Below, in pieces: positions 36,898 to 54,418 of a stretch of 64,000 nucleotides of DNA. Origin of the DNA: a virus; the IMG/VR virus record IMGVR_UViG_3300042691_026747, positions 22,316 to 86,315 of that record; one strand, given 5' to 3'. Under the pieces are notes generated by a model. The model was not told the origin of the DNA and did no database searches. It saw only the letters and a program-made list of their open reading frames with translations. The stretch's first letter is position 1; each line of letters opens with the position of its first letter. The position numbers were made by a program, and so were the translations under genes.

Positions 36898-38667
36898 TTA
36901 ACGTAATTCTCTTACGTCGAATGTACGTAATCCATCTACACGAATATGGCCATAGAAGCGATTATTAACCATTTTTTTGGCGTAACGTGTCATTATACCC
37001 TTTACTGGTACGAAGTTGAACGGATTGTACATTGTAGGAGTCAACTGCATTGGTACATACGGAGCGTAGATGTAACCAGTGTCAAGTAATGACTTACCTT
37101 TATGTCCGATGATAACAGAGTACGCTGGAGCGTATGGGTCACGGTAAACAGTGTAACGACCATTTAATGAACCTACTCTTTCAATACCCATGTTATATTG
37201 GTCTTGCTCAGGAGCTGCGTTAGATACGTGGAAGTATTCTAAATCGTCTAATACTGCTGATACCTCAGAAGATACAACAACGAAGTTAGCTCCACCTCTT
37301 AACGTAGATTTGTGGATTTGAGCTGAGATTTGGTTGACAGCCGTCATCAAAGTTTGGTTCCAATCTTTTTGAGTGTAACCATTGTTGTTTGGTAAACGCT
37401 TCCATCCGTTGTAATCCCAACGTAATTGCCATGCTGCACCTTTACGTAAATCCATTAAGATTTCACGGTCAATTTCAGCCGCAACTTGCTCAGATAATAA
37501 TGCTGTTAATTCAGCTTCAGCATCGATGTTGTGGAATGCACTAACGTCTTGTGCTAATTCAGGAGTCCAAGTAGCTCTTAACTTACGTTCAGTAACCGAT
37601 ACAGTTACAGATTCAAGTTCAAAAGAAACTTCACCCATGTTAGATTCAGCTTCTAAATCAGCGTATTGTCTCCAAGCGATAGCTACGAAAGATGCTGATG
37701 TTACAGAAGTTCCTGTATAATTAGCCCCGATATATCCATCAAATGTTTTAGTTGAACAAGAAACACAATTTGGACTTGTGAAATCTAATTCAATATACAA
37801 TTTACCATCTGCTGAACAAATATCACCGTAGTCAACAATACCTCTACCGTATTTTTGAGTTACTAAACGGAAAGGAATTTGGTCACCTTGATTGAAAATT
37901 ACATTTCCAGAAGGATCTAATACTTGAGTACCAGCTACAACTGTTAATGAAGCTAAGAAAGATTCTGTATCCATTTCATTTCCATCAGGACCTACTAAAC
38001 GTCCAGGAGCTGTACTGCTAAAACCTTTAACTTCAAATTTTTGGTAACGTAATGAACCATCAGAAGCTGCTGGAGTTTTTCCTGCTACATATTCACTTCC
38101 ACTTGTACAAGCTGTTAATACAACTGCTGTACCAGAAACAACTTTAAGAGTAATTTCACCTTTTGATTGATCGTATAATCCATCGTTATAGAAAATATCA
38201 TAAAGGTTTTTAGTACAACCACTAAATGTAGATTCAGGACAGTTAACACAACTAGCGATAGCTAAACCTCTATGTTTAGATGTACCACCGTTTGTACCAG
38301 CTAAGAAAGCTGCGTCATCAACTCTATCAGACGTTTTTGGAACGAAGTAGAATAATTTACCGATTGGTAAATTTAAAGCTTGAACCGATACGATATCGTT
38401 AGCTAATAATTTAGAGAATACACGTCTTACGATTGGAAACACTACAGTTTCAAAAGATCCAGTAGATCCTCCACCTGCAGTAGATGTTTCACTGATAAGA
38501 GTTGATGCTTGGTTTTCATATAACAAAGCGATGTTTTCTCTGATGTGGCCTTCAAGACCCTCTAAGAACCCTAAAGATTCCCATTTGTTTACAGTTGCCT
38601 CACGGATTGCTTTTTGATGCTTTAATCCGATATTACCAACCTCACCTGATTTTAATAAATATCCCAT
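36898..38667 (-). CDS. Major capsid protein, T4 gp23-like
   Basis: The 589-residue protein has the gp23 signature: VVFPIVRRVFSKLLANDIVS (about residues 74-93), then VQALNLPIGKLFYF. Its N-terminal 60 residues form a charged propeptide ending TLISE|TST (E60), matching the (L/I)-x-E cut site and position (65 in T4) of gp21 processing. WTPELAQDVSAFH and DGLRTFDVREL near the C-terminus also fit. Its codons are visibly less AT-biased than those of its neighbours, as expected for high expression. It forms the head shell. A scaffold gene lies upstream. Confidence 0.93.
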   Translation of the reverse strand: MGYLLKSGEVGNIGLKHQKAIREATVNKWESLGFLEGLEGHIRENIALLYENQASTLISETSTAGGGSTGSFETVVFPIVRRVFSKLLANDIVSVQALNLPIGKLFYFVPKTSDRVDDAAFLAGTNGGTSKHRGLAIASCVNCPESTFSGCTKNLYDIFYNDGLYDQSKGEITLKVVSGTAVVLTACTSGSEYVAGKTPAASDGSLRYQKFEVKGFSSTAPGRLVGPDGNEMDTESFLASLTVVAGTQVLDPSGNVIFNQGDQIPFRLVTQKYGRGIVDYGDICSADGKLYIELDFTSPNCVSCSTKTFDGYIGANYTGTSVTSASFVAIAWRQYADLEAESNMGEVSFELESVTVSVTERKLRATWTPELAQDVSAFHNIDAEAELTALLSEQVAAEIDREILMDLRKGAAWQLRWDYNGWKRLPNNNGYTQKDWNQTLMTAVNQISAQIHKSTLRGGANFVVVSSEVSAVLDDLEYFHVSNAAPEQDQYNMGIERVGSLNGRYTVYRDPYAPAYSVIIGHKGKSLLDTGYIYAPYVPMQLTPTMYNPFNFVPVKGIMTRYAKKMVNNRFYGHIRVDGLRTFDVRELR

Positions 38668-40323: not shown

Positions 40324-40797
40324 ATGAAAGATAAAATCAGACTTATTTTAAGGGAATTTGTAGAAAATCAATCAAAAAACGACGTTTCTGATAAAGCAGA
40401 TTATATGCAAAAAAAAATTATTAAAAAGTCAAAATATCCTGCTGAGACTAAAAAAATTAGTCATATGAAAGATGAGATTGGTAAAAAAGTAAAAAATGCT
40501 TATAAAGATATAACTGGTGAAGAACCAGTTAGTGATGATAATATTGTGGTAAAAGTTGATGACAATATTAAAGCTGGTAAAATTGGATCATTTAAACACC
40601 CTGAAAACGAAAAAGACCTTGGAATTATGAAAATTCATCCCAAAGCCTTAGAAGATAAAGAATATGTTGAAGATATTCTGAAACATGAATTAATACACGC
40701 TTCACATGGACATAAAAACACTGAAGCCAGAAATCATAAAGGTATATTTCAAGATTTGGCAGATCGTGTTGGTCTACCTAAAAAATATAGACATTAA
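40324..40797 (+). CDS. HExxH metallopeptidase with targeting-like N-terminus
   Basis: The 157-residue protein begins MKDKIRLILREFVENQSKND, a variant of the targeting peptide with an LRE cut-type site. Residues 121-125 are HELIH with a third ligand candidate at H138 (HASHGHKNTEARNH). The following helix (GIFQDLADRVGL) resembles SprT/WLM-type minimal zinc peptidases. A DYM motif (residues 26-28) recurs in other virion proteins here. It probably acts on a protein target after injection or in the head, by inference. A late-type box precedes it. It overlaps the convergent DUF4494 gene by 4 bp. Confidence 0.75.
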   Translation: MKDKIRLILREFVENQSKNDVSDKADYMQKKIIKKSKYPAETKKISHMKDEIGKKVKNAYKDITGEEPVSDDNIVVKVDDNIKAGKIGSFKHPENEKDLGIMKIHPKALEDKEYVEDILKHELIHASHGHKNTEARNHKGIFQDLADRVGLPKKYRH

Positions 40798-41712: not shown

Positions 41713-42102
41713 TTAAATATCTAATTTTTTGTTAGATTTATTTTTTTCTGAAATTATTTCATCAAAGTTATAATTCTCTTGAACTTGATTTACTGAAGCC
41801 TTATCCAAATAACCTTGTATCCTGTCATAACCATAGATATCAACTAACCTCTTAACTATTGTTCCAGGTATTTTTCTTAAATATTGGATTACTTGAGGTG
41901 GTACATCTTCAGCGTATTTACCAAAAAGTTTTTGAATTTGTTTTTCTCTGTTATAAGGTTGAAATTCTCTTCTACGGAAACTAGTATCTTTTCTTTCCTG
42001 TTCTCTTTCTGGTAAATCTTCATTGATAGTTTTACCTTCGTTGATTATTTTTTTAACCAACTTTTCAATATCGTTTTCTGTTAATTTAATTACTTTTTTC
42101 AT
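41713..42102 (-). CDS. Small virion-type protein with KVIKLTENDIEKLVKKI peptide
   Basis: The 129-residue protein begins MKKVIKLTENDIEKLVKKII, then NEGKTINEDLPEREQERK. The first 20 residues match, with only minor changes, an internal segment of the gene at 31187-32131, and they resemble the targeting class (IINE cut-type site). The remainder is helical (FGKYAEDVPPQVIQYLRKIP, IYGYDRIQGYLDKA). It overlaps the protease gene by 4 bp, suggesting coupled synthesis. Confidence 0.7.
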   Translation of the reverse strand: MKKVIKLTENDIEKLVKKIINEGKTINEDLPEREQERKDTSFRRREFQPYNREKQIQKLFGKYAEDVPPQVIQYLRKIPGTIVKRLVDIYGYDRIQGYLDKASVNQVQENYNFDEIISEKNKSNKKLDI

Positions 42103-42911
42103 TTTAAAAATTTATTTAAGCTATTTAATATTTTATTATTTGATGTAGGTATTGAATTAAAATGGATTTCGGTTGGTTCATTTTCTTCCATTAAATTCCA
42201 TTGACATGTGTAACCATTACAACCGTTATCTTTTATATAAGATTCTGTAAACTGTTTTAAATCACCTTCCTCAGAAGATATCCAAGAACCTGGGGTAGAC
42301 GGTGATGTAACAATATCCCAACATATTAATTCGAAATCATCTTGTACAACATTTTTACCACCTTCTTGTTTAAGGGATCCAACACCACGAGATGAAATAC
42401 CAACTGTCCAACCTTTTCTAATCATGTTAACCACTTTATCACCAACAGAAGATATAATACCCATTTTGTGGTAACCCGGTGTTGTGTCAAGTTCTAATTT
42501 ACCCATTAAAGTTTTACCATCCCACCATGTTTCAGTAATTCTATGTGATACTCTATCGGCGTCAATGATTGAAGACTCTGGGTGGTTTAACTCACCTAAA
42601 GATGTACCCATTTTTATATATTCCTGATATCTTTTGTTTTCTCTTTCTAGAATTTCTTTAGGGTAAATTCTACCGTTTTTATTTTCAATTCCCCATTTTT
42701 GTAATACAGCGTATACTATGATTGTTTCTGGTAAACTACCATCTTTCCCTATGTTTGTACCCGATTTAAACTCGTTTAAATATTGTAGGTGTTCTTTAAT
42801 TAAATCAGAATTTGTTTTACCTTTATAAGATAAATTAGAGGCCACAAATCCGGAATCATATTCAACTAAAAATCCCCTAGTATTTGTTTCACCTGGTTTT
42901 AAAATTTTCAT
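42099..42911 (-). CDS. Prohead protease, T4 gp21-like
   Basis: The 270-residue protein has the gp21-type serine protease motifs: VLQKWGIENKNGRIYPKEIL (about 69-88), SLGELNHPESS with His110, VGISSRGVGSL with a Ser at 173 or 174, and FELICWDIVTSPSTPGSW (about 193-210). It matures prohead proteins at (L/I)-x-E sites. Candidate sites of that form occur in the capsid (E60), the scaffold and the targeting peptides. A box ATATTTATATAA lies upstream. Confidence 0.9.
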   Translation of the reverse strand: MKILKPGETNTRGFLVEYDSGFVASNLSYKGKTNSDLIKEHLQYLNEFKSGTNIGKDGSLPETIIVYAVLQKWGIENKNGRIYPKEILERENKRYQEYIKMGTSLGELNHPESSIIDADRVSHRITETWWDGKTLMGKLELDTTPGYHKMGIISSVGDKVVNMIRKGWTVGISSRGVGSLKQEGGKNVVQDDFELICWDIVTSPSTPGSWISSEEGDLKQFTESYIKDNGCNGYTCQWNLMEENEPTEIHFNSIPTSNNKILNSLNKFLK

Positions 42912-42961: not shown

Positions 42962-45271
42962 ATGAAAGATCTTATTAAAAAAATGTTAAAAGAATTTGAT
43001 GATTTTGAATGGGTTAATGATACACTAGGTAGTGGGTTTGTCCCTGCAGTATCAAAAGAAATGTTAAATATTAATGATACTGTTTTGGTAAATGGTTATG
43101 ATTTACAAGATGAAGATGTTATTTTTAATGATGATATTGGTTTTATTATCGGTATTAGACAGCATGTGGGTAACGATGTTATTTTAGTTAAATTTAACGA
43201 TAAAAAATTTGACGAGAATGTAATCAACATGTCAACACCTATGTGGGATAGCTACAAAGAAGATTGTCGTGGTAAAAAATGTTGGTCATTTATGAGAGAT
43301 TATACAAAATTTGAGGATTCTGAACATTTAAAAATATTAGTTTCAACCAAAATAAATGAAAGTATAGTAAAAGAATATGATGAATATAGTTGGGTGGAAG
43401 ATGTTATTGGTGATGATGAAACTGATAAAGAATTTATCATACCCACAATTGGTTTGTTAAAAAAAGGTATGGAGGTATTAATTAACGGTGATGATATTGA
43501 TGCTGAGTTTAATATGGATTTGGGGGTCATAATAGATGAAGGTATAACAACTCTTGGTAAAGATTTAATTTTAGTTAAATTTTATAATAAAGATGATTTG
43601 GGTTCTGATTACTTAGGTCGGGTGGGTTATAACAACCATGATAATAGTGAGTGTTATGATAATAAATGTTGGTCTTTTTTTAAAGATTTTAGATACTATA
43701 AATCAAACGAACAAGATTTAACAATATATATAAAAAATCCTTTATATAAAAAACCTAACATAAATGAAAATGTTGTAAGGAAAAAGATAAATATGGATTT
43801 ACCTAACTCGGTAAAACAAATGAACCAAATCTTTAAAGATAACGGTTATGAGTTATATGTTGTTGGTGGTGCTGTTAGAGATTTATTATTAGGTCAGGAA
43901 CCTAAGGATTTTGATTTGGCCACAAATGCCACACCTGAAGTTGTTAAATCCATGTTAAACATGTTTAGAACAATTGAAGTTGGTGAACAATTTGGTGTAG
44001 TTAATGTTATAACACCTGATGGTGAGTTTGAACTCGCTTCGTTCCGGAAAGATGTGGGAAAAGGACGTAGACCAGACTCTGTTGAGTTTACAACAATAGA
44101 CCAAGATGTTAAAAGACGTGACTTAACCATTAACGCTTTATTTTATGATATAGATAAAGGGGAGGTTGTGGATTTAGTTGGTGGTATTGGTGATATAGAA
44201 GGTAATGTGGTTAGAACAGTTGGTTCAGCCTCAGAACGTTTTGATGAGGATAAATTACGTATACTTAGAGCAATTAGATTTGCGTCTAGAGTTGGTTCAC
44301 AATTAGATAAGGATATTGTTGACGCTATAACTAAAGATAAAACACCAATAAGTGGTAACGGTTTACCACTATCACAGGAAAGAATTAGGGATGAATTCTT
44401 AAAAGGTGTTAAACAATCACAGTCTGTTGGTTATTTCACACAAATGATAACCAACCTAAACCTATGGGATTGGATATTCGGTAGACTTGTAGTGACTACG
44501 GATCCATTAATAGAAACTAGAAATCCATTGGTACTTATAGCTACTTTACTTGTAAGTAATGAACCTAAGTTGGTTGAAAAGTACTTGGTTGACACACTTA
44601 AGTATACGTCTGAAGAAGGTAAAAAGATTGCCTTCTTAATACAATTTTTTAAGACTAATAGTGGTGATTTATATAAACTTAGAGAAAGATATGACGCTAT
44701 AAAAATGGATGACGATACGTTAAGAATTTTTGGTCAAATGAACAACATAAACCCAAAATCAGTTGAAGCATTCATAAATTATAAAGTAACAACATCTGGT
44801 GAAGAATTAATAAAACAAGGTTTTAAAGGTAGGGAAATAGGTGTTGAGAAAGATAGAATTGAGAGGGAGATTTTCAAAAAGTTAATAAAAGAAGAAGTTA
44901 AAAAAGTATCTTATTCTGCTGTTGTATTAACAGAAGAATCTAGAATTAGGTTGATTAAATCTTTAAACATACCTAAGGGTTGGGAAGTTATTGCACACCA
45001 TATGACAATAAACATGGGTCCTATAAAAGAAGTTTATAAACCACTGTTAGGTCAATCAATTGACTTAGTTGTGACACATGTAGGTGAGTTAGATAATGTA
45101 ATGGCAGTCAAAGTAGATACGGAATTAGTTACAAAAACAACAACACCACATATAACAATCGCTGTAGATAGAAGTAAGGGTGGTAAACCTGTTATGTCTA
45201 ATAATATAAAAGATTGGATTGGTGTACCGCCTTTAGAATTAGAAGGTATAATTAAAGAAATTTATTTTTAA
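42962..45271 (+). CDS. RNA-repair-type fusion: targeting peptide, duplicated domain, CCA/poly(A)-type nucleotidyltransferase, 2H phosphoesterase
   Basis: The 769-residue protein has four parts. (1) Residues 1-12, MKDLIKKMLKEF, the targeting-type peptide. (2) Two copies of a domain of about 110 residues (about 14-125, 140-265), sharing F/Y-x-WVxD, VLxNGxD, GxII, DxILVKF and KCWSF(M/F)xD. (3) From about 280, a class II nucleotidyltransferase: VVGGAVRDLLLG, DFDLATNA (the two Asp), RRDLTINAL and DEDKLRILRAIRFASR. (4) From about 650, a 2H-type domain with HMT (about 680) and HIT (about 729). IFKKLIKEE (about 636-646) joins parts 3 and 4 like a second targeting peptide. Probable role: repair or modification of RNA 3' ends. 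Confidence 0.8.
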   Translation: MKDLIKKMLKEFDDFEWVNDTLGSGFVPAVSKEMLNINDTVLVNGYDLQDEDVIFNDDIGFIIGIRQHVGNDVILVKFNDKKFDENVINMSTPMWDSYKEDCRGKKCWSFMRDYTKFEDSEHLKILVSTKINESIVKEYDEYSWVEDVIGDDETDKEFIIPTIGLLKKGMEVLINGDDIDAEFNMDLGVIIDEGITTLGKDLILVKFYNKDDLGSDYLGRVGYNNHDNSECYDNKCWSFFKDFRYYKSNEQDLTIYIKNPLYKKPNINENVVRKKINMDLPNSVKQMNQIFKDNGYELYVVGGAVRDLLLGQEPKDFDLATNATPEVVKSMLNMFRTIEVGEQFGVVNVITPDGEFELASFRKDVGKGRRPDSVEFTTIDQDVKRRDLTINALFYDIDKGEVVDLVGGIGDIEGNVVRTVGSASERFDEDKLRILRAIRFASRVGSQLDKDIVDAITKDKTPISGNGLPLSQERIRDEFLKGVKQSQSVGYFTQMITNLNLWDWIFGRLVVTTDPLIETRNPLVLIATLLVSNEPKLVEKYLVDTLKYTSEEGKKIAFLIQFFKTNSGDLYKLRERYDAIKMDDDTLRIFGQMNNINPKSVEAFINYKVTTSGEELIKQGFKGREIGVEKDRIEREIFKKLIKEEVKKVSYSAVVLTEESRIRLIKSLNIPKGWEVIAHHMTINMGPIKEVYKPLLGQSIDLVVTHVGELDNVMAVKVDTELVTKTTTPHITIAVDRSKGGKPVMSNNIKDWIGVPPLELEGIIKEIYF

Positions 45272-45746: not shown

Positions 45747-46883
45747 TTACTCAACTGTTATTGCAGCTTTATCAAAAACAGTTTCAATCATAACTAAAGA
45801 AACTTTGTATGGGTCACAGTTTGCTGCTGGTCGTCTGTCTTCGAAATAACCCTTTTTATCGTTATATGTTTGTACGGGAATTCTTATACTAGAACCACGG
45901 TCACTATTACCAAAACTAAAATCATTAATACTAGATGTTTCATGATTACCTGTTAAACGTAATTCATTATGTTCACCATAGACTTCAATATGTTCTTTGT
46001 GTCTAACTTTTAATTTTTCACAAGCCTTTAATATAACATCTAAACCTCTATAATCTCTCATTTCTTTTGTTGAAAAATTAACATGACACCCACTACCATT
46101 CCAATCACCTTTTACAGGTTTAGGGTGTAAACTAATATCATAGCCATAATTTTCAGCAACTCTTTGTAAAATGTATCTAGAAATCCATAATTGGTCTGAA
46201 CCGTTTAATGCTGTCACAGGACCTATTTGGTATTCCCACTGACCTATCAATACTTCAGCGTTAATACCACCAATAGATAAACCTATTTGAGAACATTTGT
46301 TAAGATGATCCTCAACAATATCTCTACCAATGACATTCAACCCTCCAATACCACAATAATAATCACCTTGAGGTCTAGGTTTATCAGCATCTTTATTAAA
46401 ACCTAAAGGTATACCACCATCATATTGAAATGGACTACTTTCATTTGCCGGATGAGTTATTATATACTCTTGTTCCCAACCAAACCAAGGTACTTCATTG
46501 TGATTGGCATCGTACTCCTTAAACTTAAGTTCTTTTAATAATTTAGTAAGTTTGGATCTTGTGTTTGTTTTATGAGGTGTTTTACCGTCTGGGTTATATA
46601 CCTCACATAGAACTAATTTGTGTGGAGACCCTCTTAAAGGGTCATCTACCACATAGACGGGTTTAAGTACACAATCAGTACCTTTAAAATCAAATTCTTT
46701 GCCAGCTTGTTTAGTGGAACTACCATCAAAACTCCATAGTGGGTAAGCTTCTGGATAACCCTGATTTTTTGTACCTTCTGAAGTTACAATATCTTGAGCG
46801 TCCACAACTTTAGTTTTACTACGAAGTTTTTGTGGTACATTACCATCTAACCAAATGTACTCTAAGAAAACTTTGTCATTCAT
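45747..46883 (-). CDS. glnA: Glutamine synthetase, eukaryotic-type (GSII)
   Basis: The 378-residue protein is a GSII-type enzyme. It has EYIWLDG and PLWSFDGSSTKQAG (N-terminal beta-grasp), WFGWEQEYII (about residues 127-136), GGINAEVLIGQWEYQIGP (about 198-215), GDWNGSGCHVNFSTKEMR (about 258-275), RLTGNHETSSINDFSFGN and SSIRIP, then YFEDRRPAANCDPY (about 350-363). These include the ATP/Glu-binding and Arg positions of the family. It makes glutamine from glutamate, ammonia and ATP. Size (350-380) and layout suit GSII rather than GSI. It is an unusual phage metabolic gene. Start ATG follows an A-rich leader. Confidence 0.93.
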   Translation of the reverse strand: MNDKVFLEYIWLDGNVPQKLRSKTKVVDAQDIVTSEGTKNQGYPEAYPLWSFDGSSTKQAGKEFDFKGTDCVLKPVYVVDDPLRGSPHKLVLCEVYNPDGKTPHKTNTRSKLTKLLKELKFKEYDANHNEVPWFGWEQEYIITHPANESSPFQYDGGIPLGFNKDADKPRPQGDYYCGIGGLNVIGRDIVEDHLNKCSQIGLSIGGINAEVLIGQWEYQIGPVTALNGSDQLWISRYILQRVAENYGYDISLHPKPVKGDWNGSGCHVNFSTKEMRDYRGLDVILKACEKLKVRHKEHIEVYGEHNELRLTGNHETSSINDFSFGNSDRGSSIRIPVQTYNDKKGYFEDRRPAANCDPYKVSLVMIETVFDKAAITVE

Positions 46884-51014: not shown

Positions 51015-51260
51015 TTACTCAACATAATCACAATTAACATAAGCCAAATGATTACCGTTAGCCGGATCTATATCATAAACATATGTTGTAATGTTATCGA
51101 CAACATTATCACAAATTAATTTTAAACCAGTTTGTTTTAAATTACCACCCTTTTCAAACGGTAAAGGTTTCCATTTATAATAAACTGGTCCAGCACCTCT
51201 TCTCATATTGGGTTGACCTTTAAATGGTTGGTTTTGTGAAATATTTCTTCCTGTTGCCAT
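51015..51260 (-). CDS. Small protein between terminase and portal genes
   Basis: The 81-residue protein begins MATGRNISQNQPFKGQPNMR, is Pro/Gly-rich at the start and beta-rich at the end (ICDNVVDNITTYVYDIDPAN). It starts on the stop codon of the terminase gene (shared TAATG). Not recognised. Position suggests a virion or packaging accessory protein. Confidence 0.65.
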   Translation of the reverse strand: MATGRNISQNQPFKGQPNMRRGAGPVYYKWKPLPFEKGGNLKQTGLKLICDNVVDNITTYVYDIDPANGNHLAYVNCDYVE

Positions 51261-54200
51261 TATTTTATTAATTTTTTATTACTGTTTTTATCGGTAAATC
51301 CCGCCATACCAAAAAATACCCAATTATGTTCAGAGTTGGCATATTGAACTTGTTTGGATAAATCACCACGCGAATTCATATGGTTATTTTCCGTAACATT
51401 TAACTCTTGTATTGTATCAGTTGTGTTTGTAGAAACAACCCAAGAATCCAACATAGCTTTAGTTTGCCCCTGACTTTTTTGTAAGTCTTTAAATGATGTT
51501 TGTGCAACGTAACAGCACATCGCAATACCCATCAACAAATCATCATGATAACCTTTCATATGGTCAGCACGGCCACCTTTAAACACAAAAGTATCCATTT
51601 CAGCCAAAGCTCTAATAGACCTAACTTTAAAAGAATTTAAACGTACAGATTCCTCTAATTTTGTAACTATAGTATTTCTATTTTTTTGAAAATTAAGACC
51701 TGGTAATTTACCATCCCTCATGTGTTTTTCTAACGTTTTATTGTTAGTTACGGCATCTATACCTATGATTTGGTCATAGTACATTCTTTTAACCGGATAA
51801 CTAAGTTCTATCATTTTTAATACGGAAGAAACACCATAACCACCTGTAATATCGACAACAGCGAAAGCCTCATATCTATTACCATATTCTACAGCTATTT
51901 CACCTAATATATCTGGGGCCACCTTACCGTGGTATTCAGCAACTTGATTACCTGTGGTGAAATCCATTATACAAATAGTAGAAAAGTCATCTGCTGAACC
52001 TGAAGAGGCATCTATAGCCATTATATATTCATGACCTAATTGTGGGTCTTCCCATATCCACATACCACCATCCAACCACTCCATTCTAACCGGATCTTGT
52101 ATATTATTCTTTCTGTGGTAATCTATATATTTTTCATTAATTACGTTATCACCTGAACCGTTAAACGTACAGTTCAACTCTTGTGCAATCTTACGTTGAT
52201 TATGGTTAAGTTGGGCACACATTTTTTCATACCAAGGTGAAATTGGTTGCCAACCTTCAGACTCTAACCTATCGAAATTGTCATAATTCATATCAACAAT
52301 TTCTTCTATCACTTCTCCGGCATCATTAAATTTTAACCATTTCATATCTTTGTTGTAACGTGGATCTTGAAACCATCTCATTTCAACAATATTAAATGGA
52401 TTGTTAGTTTTTTCTTTTGTTTTGGCCGCCATATATGTTTTATAATATAAGGCGTCCATACCGTTTGGTGTTTGGTGACCTAATATACCGTTATATAAAA
52501 CACTGTGACACCACATATCATCATCATTATTAGGTAATGAGAAATCGTAGGTATCGTTTTTACCATCTTCTATAGATTTAACCTCAACCCACATAATATT
52601 GTGAGATATGTTATTATAGGATTCGTTTACGATATCCAAATAACTTAATAATAATCCTCTACTAACGTGATTTACTTTACTGTTTGTTCTAGTTATGTGA
52701 CTTATTTTACAACCTCTATCCGAAAAATATTTTAAACCTAACCCATTTTTATGGTAATTATTACGGATTATATCACCACCCATTGGTACAACGTCATGTG
52801 GTTCATGTATTTTATACATTACTAAGTTATGTTTTTTTACATCTTTACGTTTTAAATTAAAACCTATTAAATCGTAAAAAAGTTTAGAATTTTTACTGTT
52901 CATATGTAATCTATAATTCATAGACTCAACCTTAACCCTTTTGGTTGGTGGTGTTAATTTTTCTTGGTATTCACATAGTATACCCAAGTTCATAAATAAC
53001 ACCCTAAACTGTTCCACCAATCTTTTAGAAGACGAACAAAGACCTACATTACCGTTATCAGACCTACTATAACCGTCACCGTCCATAAACCCTCTGATAA
53101 AAGATATCACATTTTTTTTAGACAAAGAAAAAATACGTTTAGGTATTGTTTTTAGTTTAGCTTTTAGAGCTAAATCAAAACCCATGTATTCTAAAAATCC
53201 ACCTAATTCTTTGGATGATGTGGTGTAATGAAATTTACCGTCGAAACTATATTTTAAACCTAATTTTTTGAATATACCGGATATGTCATCACCACAACTA
53301 ATAGTTATTGAAGTACCTACATGTTTACCGTTTTTTATTGATTTATATGAACTACCTTCTGCTAAAAATAAACCCATAAAATAACTAACATCTTCGGTTA
53401 TTTTATTTATTTTAAATTTGTTCCTATTTCTTTTGTTTTCGGTAATAATGAAATCAGAACAATCATCATTATCACCCCATATGTTTTGGTTATAAACAAC
53501 AGGCACATAATCACCAACAGACAAATCTTTCAATTGATACCACCCAAAAGATTTGTTTTTATCCGAATACACGTAAAGTTTATGATTTAAACTCCCTTCT
53601 AAATTGGTTATTTTAGTTTTTATTATTTTAGTATCTACATTACCGTTGTTAAACATAATATTAGAACCTCGTAAACCACCGTAACCTAAAACTTCATAAT
53701 TATCTATGTTGTACCCACCTTTTCTATTTTCATCAACGAAATCACCAACCTCTCTAATACCTTTATTAGTAAATACAAAAGTGTCTTTTGTTACACAAGA
53801 AATTAAAATAGCTCCACCACCTGTTGATAAAGCTGGTTGAGCCGCCGCATAAACCTCTTCACCGCCTTCAATATACGCCGCCTCATCCATGACTAGTAAT
53901 GTAGGTGTATAACCACGTAATGCATCCATTGATGTAGCTACGGCTTTAACCTCTGAACCGTTTGTTAATCTATAATGTTTAGCTGAATTCTTTTCGGCAT
54001 CATACCATGAAGGTTCATCACCTGGTTTAGTAGGTGGTGCCCAAACATTCATCCATGATGGTAATTGTGAAGTAAAGTCTTTAACTTTTTTAAGGAATTC
54101 TATAGCTGTTTCCTGTTTATTAGCTAAAATTAGAACCCTTTGAGGGCTTTGTGGGTCAGCCAGTGCTGTCATGACAGCTATATAAGCCGCCGTTGTTGTG

Positions 54201-54418
54201 GAAACACCCGCCTGACGGGGTTTCATCACTATATTAAACTGTTCTTTCTTGTATGCTTTAATTAATTCCTTTTGTTTGGGGAATAATTTAAAACTAACAA
54301 ATCCTTTTTGTGTTTGGTCAAATGTGGTTAAATAGTTTTCTATTGTATAAATAGGATCTTTTATACATTTGGCAAGTTCAAGAAGTTTTTGTGTTTTATT
54401 TTGTTGTATATTAGACAT
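51260..54418 (-). CDS. Large terminase subunit (gp17-like) interrupted by an intein
   Basis: The 1052-residue precursor contains terminase ATPase motifs: IVMKPRQAGVST (Walker A-like, about 63-74), VLILANKQ, TLLVMDEAAYIEGG (Walker B, about 172-185) and motif III, which reads ILIS...TPNG but is split by a 442-residue intein. After it come the nuclease part with EYIMAIDASSG and FAVVDITGGYG (RNase H-type Asp residues). Extein length is 610, normal for gp17-like proteins. It cuts concatemeric DNA and pumps it through the portal. A GATATTTATATA box lies upstream. Confidence 0.92.
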   Translation of the reverse strand: MSNIQQNKTQKLLELAKCIKDPIYTIENYLTTFDQTQKGFVSFKLFPKQKELIKAYKKEQFNIVMKPRQAGVSTTTAAYIAVMTALADPQSPQRVLILANKQETAIEFLKKVKDFTSQLPSWMNVWAPPTKPGDEPSWYDAEKNSAKHYRLTNGSEVKAVATSMDALRGYTPTLLVMDEAAYIEGGEEVYAAAQPALSTGGGAILISCVTKDTFVFTNKGIREVGDFVDENRKGGYNIDNYEVLGYGGLRGSNIMFNNGNVDTKIIKTKITNLEGSLNHKLYVYSDKNKSFGWYQLKDLSVGDYVPVVYNQNIWGDNDDCSDFIITENKRNRNKFKINKITEDVSYFMGLFLAEGSSYKSIKNGKHVGTSITISCGDDISGIFKKLGLKYSFDGKFHYTTSSKELGGFLEYMGFDLALKAKLKTIPKRIFSLSKKNVISFIRGFMDGDGYSRSDNGNVGLCSSSKRLVEQFRVLFMNLGILCEYQEKLTPPTKRVKVESMNYRLHMNSKNSKLFYDLIGFNLKRKDVKKHNLVMYKIHEPHDVVPMGGDIIRNNYHKNGLGLKYFSDRGCKISHITRTNSKVNHVSRGLLLSYLDIVNESYNNISHNIMWVEVKSIEDGKNDTYDFSLPNNDDDMWCHSVLYNGILGHQTPNGMDALYYKTYMAAKTKEKTNNPFNIVEMRWFQDPRYNKDMKWLKFNDAGEVIEEIVDMNYDNFDRLESEGWQPISPWYEKMCAQLNHNQRKIAQELNCTFNGSGDNVINEKYIDYHRKNNIQDPVRMEWLDGGMWIWEDPQLGHEYIMAIDASSGSADDFSTICIMDFTTGNQVAEYHGKVAPDILGEIAVEYGNRYEAFAVVDITGGYGVSSVLKMIELSYPVKRMYYDQIIGIDAVTNNKTLEKHMRDGKLPGLNFQKNRNTIVTKLEESVRLNSFKVRSIRALAEMDTFVFKGGRADHMKGYHDDLLMGIAMCCYVAQTSFKDLQKSQGQTKAMLDSWVVSTNTTDTIQELNVTENNHMNSRGDLSKQVQYANSEHNWVFFGMAGFTDKNSNKKLIK
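52472..53797 (-). mobile_element. Intein with LAGLIDADG-type endonuclease in the terminase gene
   Basis: The insert runs from Cys208 (CVTKDTFVFTNKG, block A) to Gln649 (VLYNGILGHQ, block G), followed by Thr as +1 residue: ILIS|C...HQ|TPNG. Removing it restores the ISTPNG motif. The 442-residue length suits a bifunctional intein. The endonuclease signatures are YFMGLFLAEGSS and FIRGFMDGDGYS, two LAGLIDADG-type motifs. The C-terminal residue is Gln rather than the usual Asn. TYDFSLPNNDDDMW is block F-like. It probably splices itself out. Confidence 0.93.

Follow-up and report, generated by a model that had tools for sequence, protein, structure and literature searches.

A stretch of viral DNA of 64,000 nucleotides (the window) contains an ORF of 769 codons, from a T4-like jumbo phage, whose product is in our view likely to be a two-enzyme protein repairing tRNA 3′ ends; its enzymatic activity and substrate, its packaging and injection, and its purpose are inferred. 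The ORF encodes a complete class II nucleotidyltransferase followed by a 2H phosphoesterase domain, both with their catalytic residues in place (Table 1). It starts with ATG, its stop codon occupies 45269-45271, and no minus-strand ORF of 80 residues or more lies within 42962-45271. This is the single chain, of the same length and at the same place, that an earlier reading of the sequence alone (the original prediction) had pointed out.

Table 1. Features of the ORF and of its neighbourhood in the window.
Feature	Position	Strand	Evidence
Whole ORF (769 aa), with targeting-like peptide, repeat pair, tRNA nucleotidyltransferase and 2H phosphoesterase domain	42962..45271	+	
Capsid-targeting-like peptide MKDLIKKMLKE, residues 1-11, with LxE at its end	42962..42994	+	
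Module 1, residues 12-133, of unknown fold and function	42995..43360	+	
Module 2, residues 134-269, repeat of module 1 with diverged sequence	43361..43768	+	
Class II tRNA nucleotidyltransferase, residues 270-644, fold nearest to CCA-adding enzymes	43769..44893	+	PF01743, phrog_2244, 1miv
Nucleotidyltransferase catalytic DFD (D316, D318)	43907..43915	+	alignment and motif positions
IKE, residues 642-644, resembling a prohead protease motif, at the border of nucleotidyltransferase and 2H domain	44885..44893	+	
2H phosphoesterase domain, residues 645-769, CNPase / tRNA-ligase CPD class by fold	44894..45268	+	
First 2H motif HMT, residues 680-682	44999..45007	+	
Second 2H motif HIT, residues 730-732	45149..45157	+	
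Prohead core protease gene, adjacent to the ORF	42099..42911	-	PF03420 Peptidase_S77, E 8.1e-30
T4-type major capsid protein gene (context)	36898..38667	-	PF07068 Gp23, E 4.2e-72

The original prediction placed a class II nucleotidyltransferase core in this chain. Indeed, PF01743 matches residues 298-418 (E 2.3e-35), corresponding to the nucleotidyltransferase head, and phrog_2244 matches residues 295-643 (E 1.9e-53). The motifs GGAVRD (302-307), DFD (316-318), RRD (385-387) and ED..R (429-433) are present. The catalytic carboxylates, whose absence on close alignment would have refuted the assignment, are found at D316 and D318. Comparison of the predicted fold with solved structures gave a CCA-adding enzyme, 1miv, as best match (Z 27.0, rmsd 4.2, 345 aligned, residues 277-640). 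The domain has the features of a class II tRNA nucleotidyltransferase, with GG..RD, DxD and RRD in its head and a whole-enzyme fold extending past the head. None of the NCBIfam CCA or poly(A) models scored over its own cut-off for the window ORF, so the nucleotides added are not known.

The C-terminal part had been proposed to be a 2H phosphoesterase with paired HMT and HIT motifs. Because a sequence search of this domain against solved structures gave no match up to E 10, a fold search was necessary. A 2H fold was predicted with a pLDDT of 94.5, so that the failure of structure prediction that would have refuted the proposal did not occur. The best structural match was CNPase (Z 13.3), followed by the fungal RNA kinase entry 6u05 (11.4), Acb1 (7.3) and LigT (6.2). 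The closest solved folds are therefore CNPase and the fungal tRNA-ligase type, and the domain falls into the CNPase / tRNA-ligase CPD fold class. With two HxT/S motifs on a 2H fold, the domain meets the features of the superfamily. H680, T682, H730 and T732 are invariant in 25 sequences (alignment A3), as are the same two histidines and two threonines across 56 2H domains (alignment A2). With PF08302 (tRNA_lig_CPD), the window domain scored 14.5 bits, below the gathering cut-off of 23, which the relatives L003 (24.1 bits), L131 (26.9 bits) and L120 (25.5 bits) passed. PF23474 (Acb1) gave no match up to E 5.

Upstream of the two enzymes, residues 8-122 align to residues 135-251 with 32% identity (E 6e-14), a duplication absent from the original prediction. 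Module 2 has VKE near its start and INE at its end. Profile searches gave no convincing family match for either module, and residues 1-269 were predicted with a pLDDT below 50, yielding no confident model.

In order to examine the linkage of the two enzymes in other phages, the best 80 of 191 viral relatives were taken together with two genomic ones, giving 82 loci. Nine were left out because they had no ORF with the 2H pattern; the 73 ORFs gave 60 distinct 2H domains. Linkage was counted with purpose-built HMMs, a locus being scored as fused when the nucleotidyltransferase HMM matched within the 2H ORF (L087 has no such match). In an earlier count, seven loci had been assigned to the fused class manually; the recount used the same-ORF rule. 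For the HAD HMM, four phage HAD proteins were used, three from 2H-locus records and one from LR756511.

Within this sample (the best 80 of 191 viral relatives), nucleotidyltransferase and 2H domain share one ORF in 25 of the 60 distinct loci, so the architecture sought in other phages was found. Of the 25 loci in which the 2H domain stands alone, 15 have a nucleotidyltransferase upstream on the same strand. An RNA-repair-type HAD is encoded downstream or within the ORF in 35/60 loci: 20/25 fused, 15/25 standalone, 0/6 kinase-2H and 0/4 other. Counted over the 73 loci of the same sample, 40 HAD matches are downstream on the same strand, one is upstream and none is on the opposite strand. The lone upstream match is taken to be the domain within the ORF of L136 itself, in which 2H, nucleotidyltransferase and HAD are all on one chain, the 2H domain coming first. 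Five of eight HAD proteins tested scored above the cut-off of HAD_SAK_1 (Pfam), that of L103 lay at the cut-off (25.6 bits) and those of L094 and L105 fell below. The single HAD copy of the window's phage (G001) exceeded it, with 53.8 bits. Its gene is about 176 kb away from the 2H ORF, and no HAD gene was found within the retrieved flanks of the four distinct loci of the window clade. The same 2H family also occurs behind a P-loop kinase (PF13671 above cut-off in 4/4 tested). Domains beyond the window architecture are seen in L085, L113 and L136; L085 and L113 carry a separate LigT/Acb1-like 2H domain (PF13563) between the nucleotidyltransferase and the 2H domain of the family.

Other repair functions were searched in six records, G001 among them. 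KptA was detected in none. AAA_33 was found in two (G005 and G009), not in G001, and the RNA_ligase cut-off was reached in the same two, the match in G001 being sub-threshold. The ORF that holds this weak match reads like an intein-containing DNA ligase. As separate observations, L117 combines a 2H domain with a weak RNA_ligase match (17.6 bits versus 27) for which no PDB relative was found, an uncounted lead, and the intron of L058 had no match in Rfam.

The origin of the fusion was examined with two trees. The nucleotidyltransferase tree comprised 30 rows; L012 and L088 were missed by the cut pattern, and L071, L083, L084, L100, L128 and L136 were left out. In this tree, the window clade joins the unfused L010/L011 at support 100/99, and a topology with all 19 fused rows in one group is rejected (p-AU 0.006). 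In the 2H tree (63 rows), the fused label needs at least three changes on well-supported branches. As judged from the nucleotidyltransferase tree, which has long branches, fusion probably took place on two or more occasions, in nucleotidyltransferase lineages distant from each other. Overall, the joining of one 2H family to two such lineages, together with its HAD and kinase partners, supports the original view that the protein serves RNA-end repair.

The chain had also been said to have a targeting-type start. In T4, capsid targeting follows an (L/I)xE protease rule. We searched the first 22 residues of ORFs for [ILVM][KR]x[IMLV][ILV]xE, with limited choices at x. On a 318-kb contig that includes the window sequence with 100% identity, 31 of 389 ORFs had the motif, as compared to 3 of 6800 random internal windows of 22 aa, which bears out the claim; the motif is common to unrelated ORFs of the window's phage. 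In the relative L003, MKNLIRKILKE immediately precedes the nucleotidyltransferase. The peptide is also borne by a small gene (41713-42102) adjoining the S77 protease gene, and in the L002, L003 and L008 contigs the prohead protease likewise adjoins the ORF. The major capsid protein has ISE at its likely maturation site, and INE is at the same place in G005. An N-terminal peptide ending in a protease motif on several proteins of one phage is a feature of T4-type internal proteins. Packaging into the head is inferred from this peptide and from the adjoining prohead protease gene, without virion proteomics; on these grounds the most likely role of the peptide is to send the protein to the prohead.

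Protease-like motifs are found inside the chain as well. Among fusions from the best 80 of 191 viral relatives, 17 of 20 distinct cases have [LI]xE in the 20 aa that precede the 2H domain, versus 19% of other windows. The count covers distinct loci with the RRD motif in the 2H ORF, L136 being excluded; since its P-values ignore the kinship of the sequences, it serves as a description only. Because such motifs lie at module borders, the ORF may encode a packaged polyprotein.

Taken together, these elements would form a pathway. Metal-independent RNases leave a 2′,3′-cyclic phosphate on cut RNA, which the 2H domain would open. According to the available part of PMC9503650, opening by 2H enzymes leaves a 2′-phosphate, so a phosphatase is needed before CCA addition. 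A Swiss-Army-Knife-type HAD phosphatase, encoded elsewhere in the window's phage and adjacent or on the same chain in relatives, would remove this phosphate, after which the nucleotidyltransferase would rebuild the CCA end. The original pairing of 2H domain and nucleotidyltransferase is thus supported as to its repair role, but the phosphatase step must be added. A parallel is given by angiogenin-cut tRNAs, whose ends carry a cyclic phosphate and were healed with T4 PNK before CCA repair (PMC3757041, consulted in part). By inference, the protein may mend tRNAs cut by bacterial defences. The neighbouring protease would trim it in the prohead, so that it would enter the cell with the DNA. A more specific version can be put forward only tentatively. 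The chain would be a head-packaged repair polyprotein whose modules bear capsid-signal remnants; it would be cut by the protease at [LI]xE borders into separate enzymes and injected, and cut tRNAs would be healed and given their CCA ends before phage expression, relatives carrying the same kit as one chain (L136) or as neighbouring genes.

Several other readings have to be weighed. The enzyme could simply finish or maintain the 3′ ends of tRNAs that the phage itself encodes, with the 2H domain tidying them and no counter-defence role. G001 indeed has 22 predicted tRNA genes, 18 of them without an encoded CCA as read from their 3′ ends. However, a head-targeting peptide makes little sense on a protein needed only after phage tRNA synthesis, and maturation has no obvious need for a domain opening cyclic phosphates, which has nevertheless been joined to two nucleotidyltransferase lineages; we regard this reading as rather unlikely. 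Less plausible still is that the nucleotidyltransferase adds poly(A) or another tail, the protein acting on other RNA ends. The pcnB model TIGR01942 (175.8 bits) scores near the CCA equivalog NF009814 of NCBIfam (180.5 bits against a cut-off of 290), neither reaching its cut-off, and a Z score of 26.7 puts the E. coli poly(A) polymerase 3aqm level with 1miv. In contrast, rows 1 to 7 of the Foldseek search are all CCA-adding enzymes, and in L120, from the second fusion lineage, the CCA model clearly outscores pcnB (150.8 versus 91.0 bits). An equally improbable reading makes the 2H domain a destroyer of signalling nucleotides (CBASS, 2′-5′ oligonucleotides), fused for convenience of delivery. 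Acb1 is such a phage enzyme, with HxT/HxT motifs (PMC9117128, in part), RNase or signal-degrading roles have been proposed for polyvalent 2H domains in the accessible text of PMC5512222, and L085 and L113 do contain a LigT/Acb1-like domain. Against this, the window's fold is closer to CNPase than to Acb1, and the family recurs with a tRNA nucleotidyltransferase, with a kinase and with an RNA-repair HAD.

The peptide itself could be a common protein start, acting as a translation or regulatory tag, on an enzyme that is cytoplasmic after expression. The absence of proteomics support for packaging leaves room for this. Moreover, the strict [LI]xE at the 2H border is kept in only one of four distinct window-clade members, the other three having MxE, and in the second fusion lineage the nucleotidyltransferase-2H ORF of G005 is without the peptide. 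There, the motif occurs in 1/288 ORFs, without enrichment; a looser form (17/266 ORFs versus 12/266 internal) is not clearly enriched either, and a T4-like pattern is found in 3/288 ORFs versus 9/5320 internal windows, being borne by a giant ORF upstream of the nucleotidyltransferase. The idea that the peptide is general to all fusions was dropped for lack of clear enrichment in G005. The tag hypothesis nevertheless appears doubtful, because the peptide has a glutamate motif at its end, is shared by the small gene adjoining the S77 protease and is matched by ISE/INE at the likely capsid maturation site in two phages. Capsid targeting of a tRNA 3′-end repair protein remains our preferred reading.

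Bacterial defences often disable tRNAs. In one survey (PMC7824862, seen in part), the phage answers described best are the supply of spare tRNAs and the resealing of cut tRNAs by ligases. The present data point to another answer, tRNA 3′-end repair by linked 2H domain, phosphatase and CCA enzyme in many uncultured phages, and suggest that certain defences cleave tRNA close to its CCA terminus. A direct prediction is that, in one lineage or more, the repair activity is delivered by the virion. The original prediction held the domain combination with a capsid-type signal to be undescribed, and in the literature searched, which was covered partially, we did not find this combination of domains.

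The 2H domain shares its fold class with vertebrate CNPase and with the kinase-CPD portion of the fungal tRNA ligase, and phage relatives place it behind a P-loop kinase. Unlike CNPase, with about 207 residues in its chain, the phage domain has about 125, and that of the window is joined to a nucleotidyltransferase. T4 Pnkp and Rnl1 repair host-cut tRNA by resealing the anticodon loop. The inferred purpose of the window ORF is the same, whereas it would rebuild the 3′ end with no ligase step. Acb1 is likewise a phage 2H enzyme with HxT/HxT (PMC9117128, from the portion available), but its fold match is weaker and the window family has RNA-repair partners. As with T4 internal proteins and Alt, an N-terminal peptide with a protease motif accompanies an S77-type protease and T4-type capsid genes (PMC5694885, PMC9958956, PMC10229621, each in part); here the cargo is RNA repair, the peptide sequence differs and motifs are also found at inner borders. 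Multidomain virion-delivered 'polyvalent proteins' are already a known kind: several unrelated enzyme domains, some of them 2H, on one phage polypeptide thought to be packaged and injected (PMC5512222, partial text). The window ORF has this multidomain make-up, as have L085, L113 and L136 with their further domains. In the sections of that survey available, pol-beta NTases are listed in conjugative elements only, and no 2H domain of the window's kind appears beside the RNA ligases. Zincin peptidases, present in about 36% of polyvalent proteins and not obligatory, are expected there to separate the domains. No peptidase family was among the Pfam matches of the window ORF up to E 1; the candidate here is the prohead protease, which would be a second way of taking multidomain virion proteins apart into their domains. 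Finally, in the E. coli CCA-adding enzyme a class II nucleotidyltransferase is joined to an RNA 3′-end healing domain, the HD domain, which has 2′,3′-cyclic phosphodiesterase, 2′-nucleotidase and phosphatase activities (PMC10673834, citing Yakunin 2004; available in part). The phage protein has the same pairing, but its healing domain is 2H instead of HD, and it is phage-encoded, with a targeting-like peptide and repeated modules.

The ORF under study lies in a T4-type gene neighbourhood. Its source virus record is 86 kb long, and the window is 100% identical over its full length to part of a 318-kb viral contig, IMGVR_UViG_3300027793_000052 (G001). The place beside the S77 prohead protease gene is kept in the contigs of three relatives (L002, L003, L008). 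A glutamine synthetase gene is found within the head gene cluster, a position that it also occupies in three relatives. The ORF for the large terminase contains an insert that resembles an intein and has a LAGLIDADG domain; the intein model stayed below its cut-off, and the terminase relatives at loci L059 and L058 have about 610 residues. A run of about 25 genes precedes the structural genes, and many of the 25 look like glycosyltransferases (reading only).

Coordinates and matches of the features discussed
Feature	Location	Match or size
ORF under study	window 42962-45271 (+)	769 residues
N-terminal modules	residues 8-122 and 135-251	32% identity to each other, E 6e-14
Nucleotidyltransferase domain	residues 298-418	PF01743, 2.3e-35
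Nucleotidyltransferase domain	residues 295-643	phrog_2244, 1.9e-53
Capsid protein	adjoining region	PF07068, 4.2e-72
Portal	adjoining region	PF07230, 1.4e-74
S77 prohead protease	beside ORF, opposite strand	PF03420, 8.1e-30
Glutamine synthetase	window 45747-46883 (-)	PF00120, 9.1e-18
Large terminase	window 51260-54418 (-)	1052 aa; PF14528, 2e-11 (insert)
SprT-like protein	window 40324-40797 (+)	20.8 bits, below cut-off 25.6
Run of about 25 genes	window 177-20178 (+)	
L136 nucleotidyltransferase	residues 477-839 of 1031	
L136 HAD domain	residues 863-1008 of 1031	1.9e-46 (custom HMM); Pfam 17.5 bits, below cut-off
L117 2H-first ORF	L117 5498-7981	827 aa; RNA_ligase 17.6 bits, cut-off 27
L155 site with SpoT-like gene beside nucleotidyltransferase	L155 2240-3760	
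L058 interrupted gene	L058 9396-12015	

The full-length structure model was confident from about residue 270 to residue 769, and not before. Using VIA-align, residues 277-640 of the model matched the Bacillus CCA-adding enzyme 1miv (Z 27.0, rmsd 4.2, 345 aligned), tied with E. coli poly(A) polymerase 3aqm (Z 26.7). With the two profile matches and the motifs GGAVRD, DFD, RRD and ED..R, this bears out the class II nucleotidyltransferase core of the original prediction, DFD carboxylates included. The 2H fold proposed for the C-terminus was recovered as well: modelled alone, the last 130 residues reached a pLDDT of 94.5, with CNPase as best match (Z 13.3, rmsd 2.3, 123 aligned), followed by the fungal RNA kinase entry 6u05 (Z 11.4), Acb1 7t26 (Z 7.3) and LigT (Z 6.2). 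The His and Thr of both HxT motifs are invariant among aligned relatives. With PF08302, the Pfam fungal tRNA-ligase phosphodiesterase, the window domain scored 14.5 bits, below the cut-off of 23, which is exceeded in relatives L003, L131 and L120.

The N-terminal part consists of two diverged copies of one module, whose alignment starts at an LKE/VKE motif. In L003, the peptide MKNLIRKILKE immediately precedes the nucleotidyltransferase. Because the closing E of this peptide lines up with E269 of the window protein, the latter resembles, from this alignment, an L003-type protein with a pair of modules inserted behind the peptide. The targeting-type start that had been predicted is supported by its distribution: 31 of 389 G001 ORFs have this peptide type in their first 22 residues, versus 3 of 6800 random internal windows (looser pattern, 55/340 ORF starts versus 13/340 internal). 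One further G001 ORF has a second copy mid-protein. The T4 protease cleaves after (L/I)xE; the capsid protein encoded in the window carries ISE at a likely maturation site, and that of G005, another phage contig, has INE. The proteases of T4, phiKZ, 201phi2-1 and SPN3US cleave after glutamate (PMC5694885), and a 10-residue T4 targeting sequence brings foreign proteins into heads and is then removed (PMC10229621; also PMC9958956). A SprT-like protein of the window also starts with a targeting-type sequence, MKDKIRLILRE.

Scanning with the 2H alignment pattern gave 191 relatives in the viral collection versus 2 among 84,980 cellular genomes; the 2H domain is therefore mainly phage-borne. From the best 80 of the 191 viral relatives and the 2 cellular ones, 82 loci were fetched; 9 without an ORF were dropped, and duplicates account for the remaining gap to 60 distinct loci. 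In this sample, to which all locus counts here refer, the architecture that the original prediction had proposed to seek in other phages was found repeatedly: 25 of the 60 loci carry 2H and nucleotidyltransferase in one ORF, a P-loop kinase is present in 6, another 25 are standalone, and the last 4 fit none of these classes. Fifteen of the 25 standalone 2H genes have an upstream same-strand nucleotidyltransferase ORF. A gene for a HAD protein akin to the Swiss-Army-Knife RNA-repair phosphatases accompanies 20/25 fused and 15/25 standalone loci, lying nearby or within them, and 0/6 kinase and 0/4 other loci. Each of the contigs that were read completely, G001 and G005, has one copy of this gene; in the window clade (the window ORF and three fused relatives), it is not adjacent to the fusion ORF. 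Among eight HAD proteins tested in Pfam, five exceeded the PF10307 cut-off (G001's at 53.8 bits), that of L103 was at it, and those of L094 and L105 were below. At locus L136, a single ORF carries 2H at its start, then nucleotidyltransferase and HAD.

At six loci (L131, L133, L144, L024, L027, L028), the same 2H domain is preceded by a P-loop kinase (tested with Pfam at L131 and L144), with an N-terminal IKxILRE peptide; these phage proteins resemble the kinase-CPD part of fungal tRNA ligase. At L085, L098, L113 and L148, the nucleotidyltransferase is followed by a second, LigT/Acb1-like 2H domain; two 2H kinds thus occur together in some chains or operons. The L117 ORF begins with 2H and has a weak RNA_ligase match and an EKVDG motif; a heal-and-seal fusion is possible. 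Giant ORFs at L057, L113, L118, L143 and L145 end in nucleotidyltransferase plus 2H, contain kinase-like modules seemingly repeated (by eye) and start MT[YF]xEF...FLPE, resembling a T4 targeting peptide. In L058, an ORF resembling a GIY-YIG nuclease (by eye) interrupts the nucleotidyltransferase gene; no Rfam match was found at the split site. The annotation of L155 (Microbacterium phage Cece) places a SpoT-like gene beside a tRNA nucleotidyltransferase. Because there are known alarmone-synthetase toxins whose target is the tRNA CCA end, which they modify (PMC11559606), this pair may, by analogy, be another CCA-end repair set.

At the domain border, [LI]xE occurs within 20 residues ahead of the 2H domain in 17 of the 20 distinct fusions among the relatives examined ([LIM]xE in all 20), against a background of 19% of other 20-residue windows in the same proteins. 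Exactly seven residues separate E from the 2H domain in 10 of the 17. Within the window clade, the strict motif is confined to the window sequence; the other three members have MxE. As the fused sequences are related, the computed P-value cannot be taken as a fair probability. Some junctions, for instance LNEDMKNVSYSAVVL (locus L100), contain the apparent start methionine of a standalone 2H gene.

In a tree of the nucleotidyltransferases, the window clade groups (100/99) with unfused proteins from two phages of 635-642 kb, apart from 16 other fusions, and a single grouping of all fusions was rejected (p-AU 0.006); the tree has long branches and must be treated with care. Both phages encode, about 1.0 and 0.4 kb downstream, a 2H protein from a different family (PF22547 2H-SAK). 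The domain order in L136 is reversed compared to other fusions. What chiefly speaks for a shared pathway is that the same activities have been joined repeatedly.

Genes for 2H, HAD phosphatase and nucleotidyltransferase are all present in this phage, and they would act in that order. The order is coherent, with inferred enzymatic activities, because a 2H enzyme opening a cyclic phosphate leaves a 2'-phosphate (PMC9503650), the cyclic phosphate left by angiogenin cutting in CCA was treated with T4 PNK before CCA-enzyme repair (PMC3757041), and the E. coli CCA enzyme has an HD domain with comparable healing activities (cited in PMC10673834). Plain tRNA maturation is still a real rival as the enzyme's role, since 18 of the 22 tRNA genes of G001 lack CCA (3' ends read by hand). 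End healing by this 2H family, an inferred activity, is argued for by the linkage of 2H to a CCA-type enzyme, a kinase and an RNA-repair HAD. Overall, the case is strong on architecture; packaging and purpose are unproven.

Polyvalent proteins are described in PMC5512222 as injected multidomain phage proteins that include 2H domains; an RNA-ligase link of these domains was not seen there, and RNase or signal-degrading roles were suggested. The original prediction had held the domain combination, together with a capsid-type signal, to be undescribed to its knowledge. Section 21 and the other portions consulted of a jumbo-phage survey (PMC7824862) contain no CCA-2H fusion and no capsid targeting; CCA enzymes and 2H enzymes are listed there separately as RNA-repair genes. 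Phage RaK2 is reported to encode its CCA-adding enzyme, kinase and ligase in separate genes (PMC3622015).
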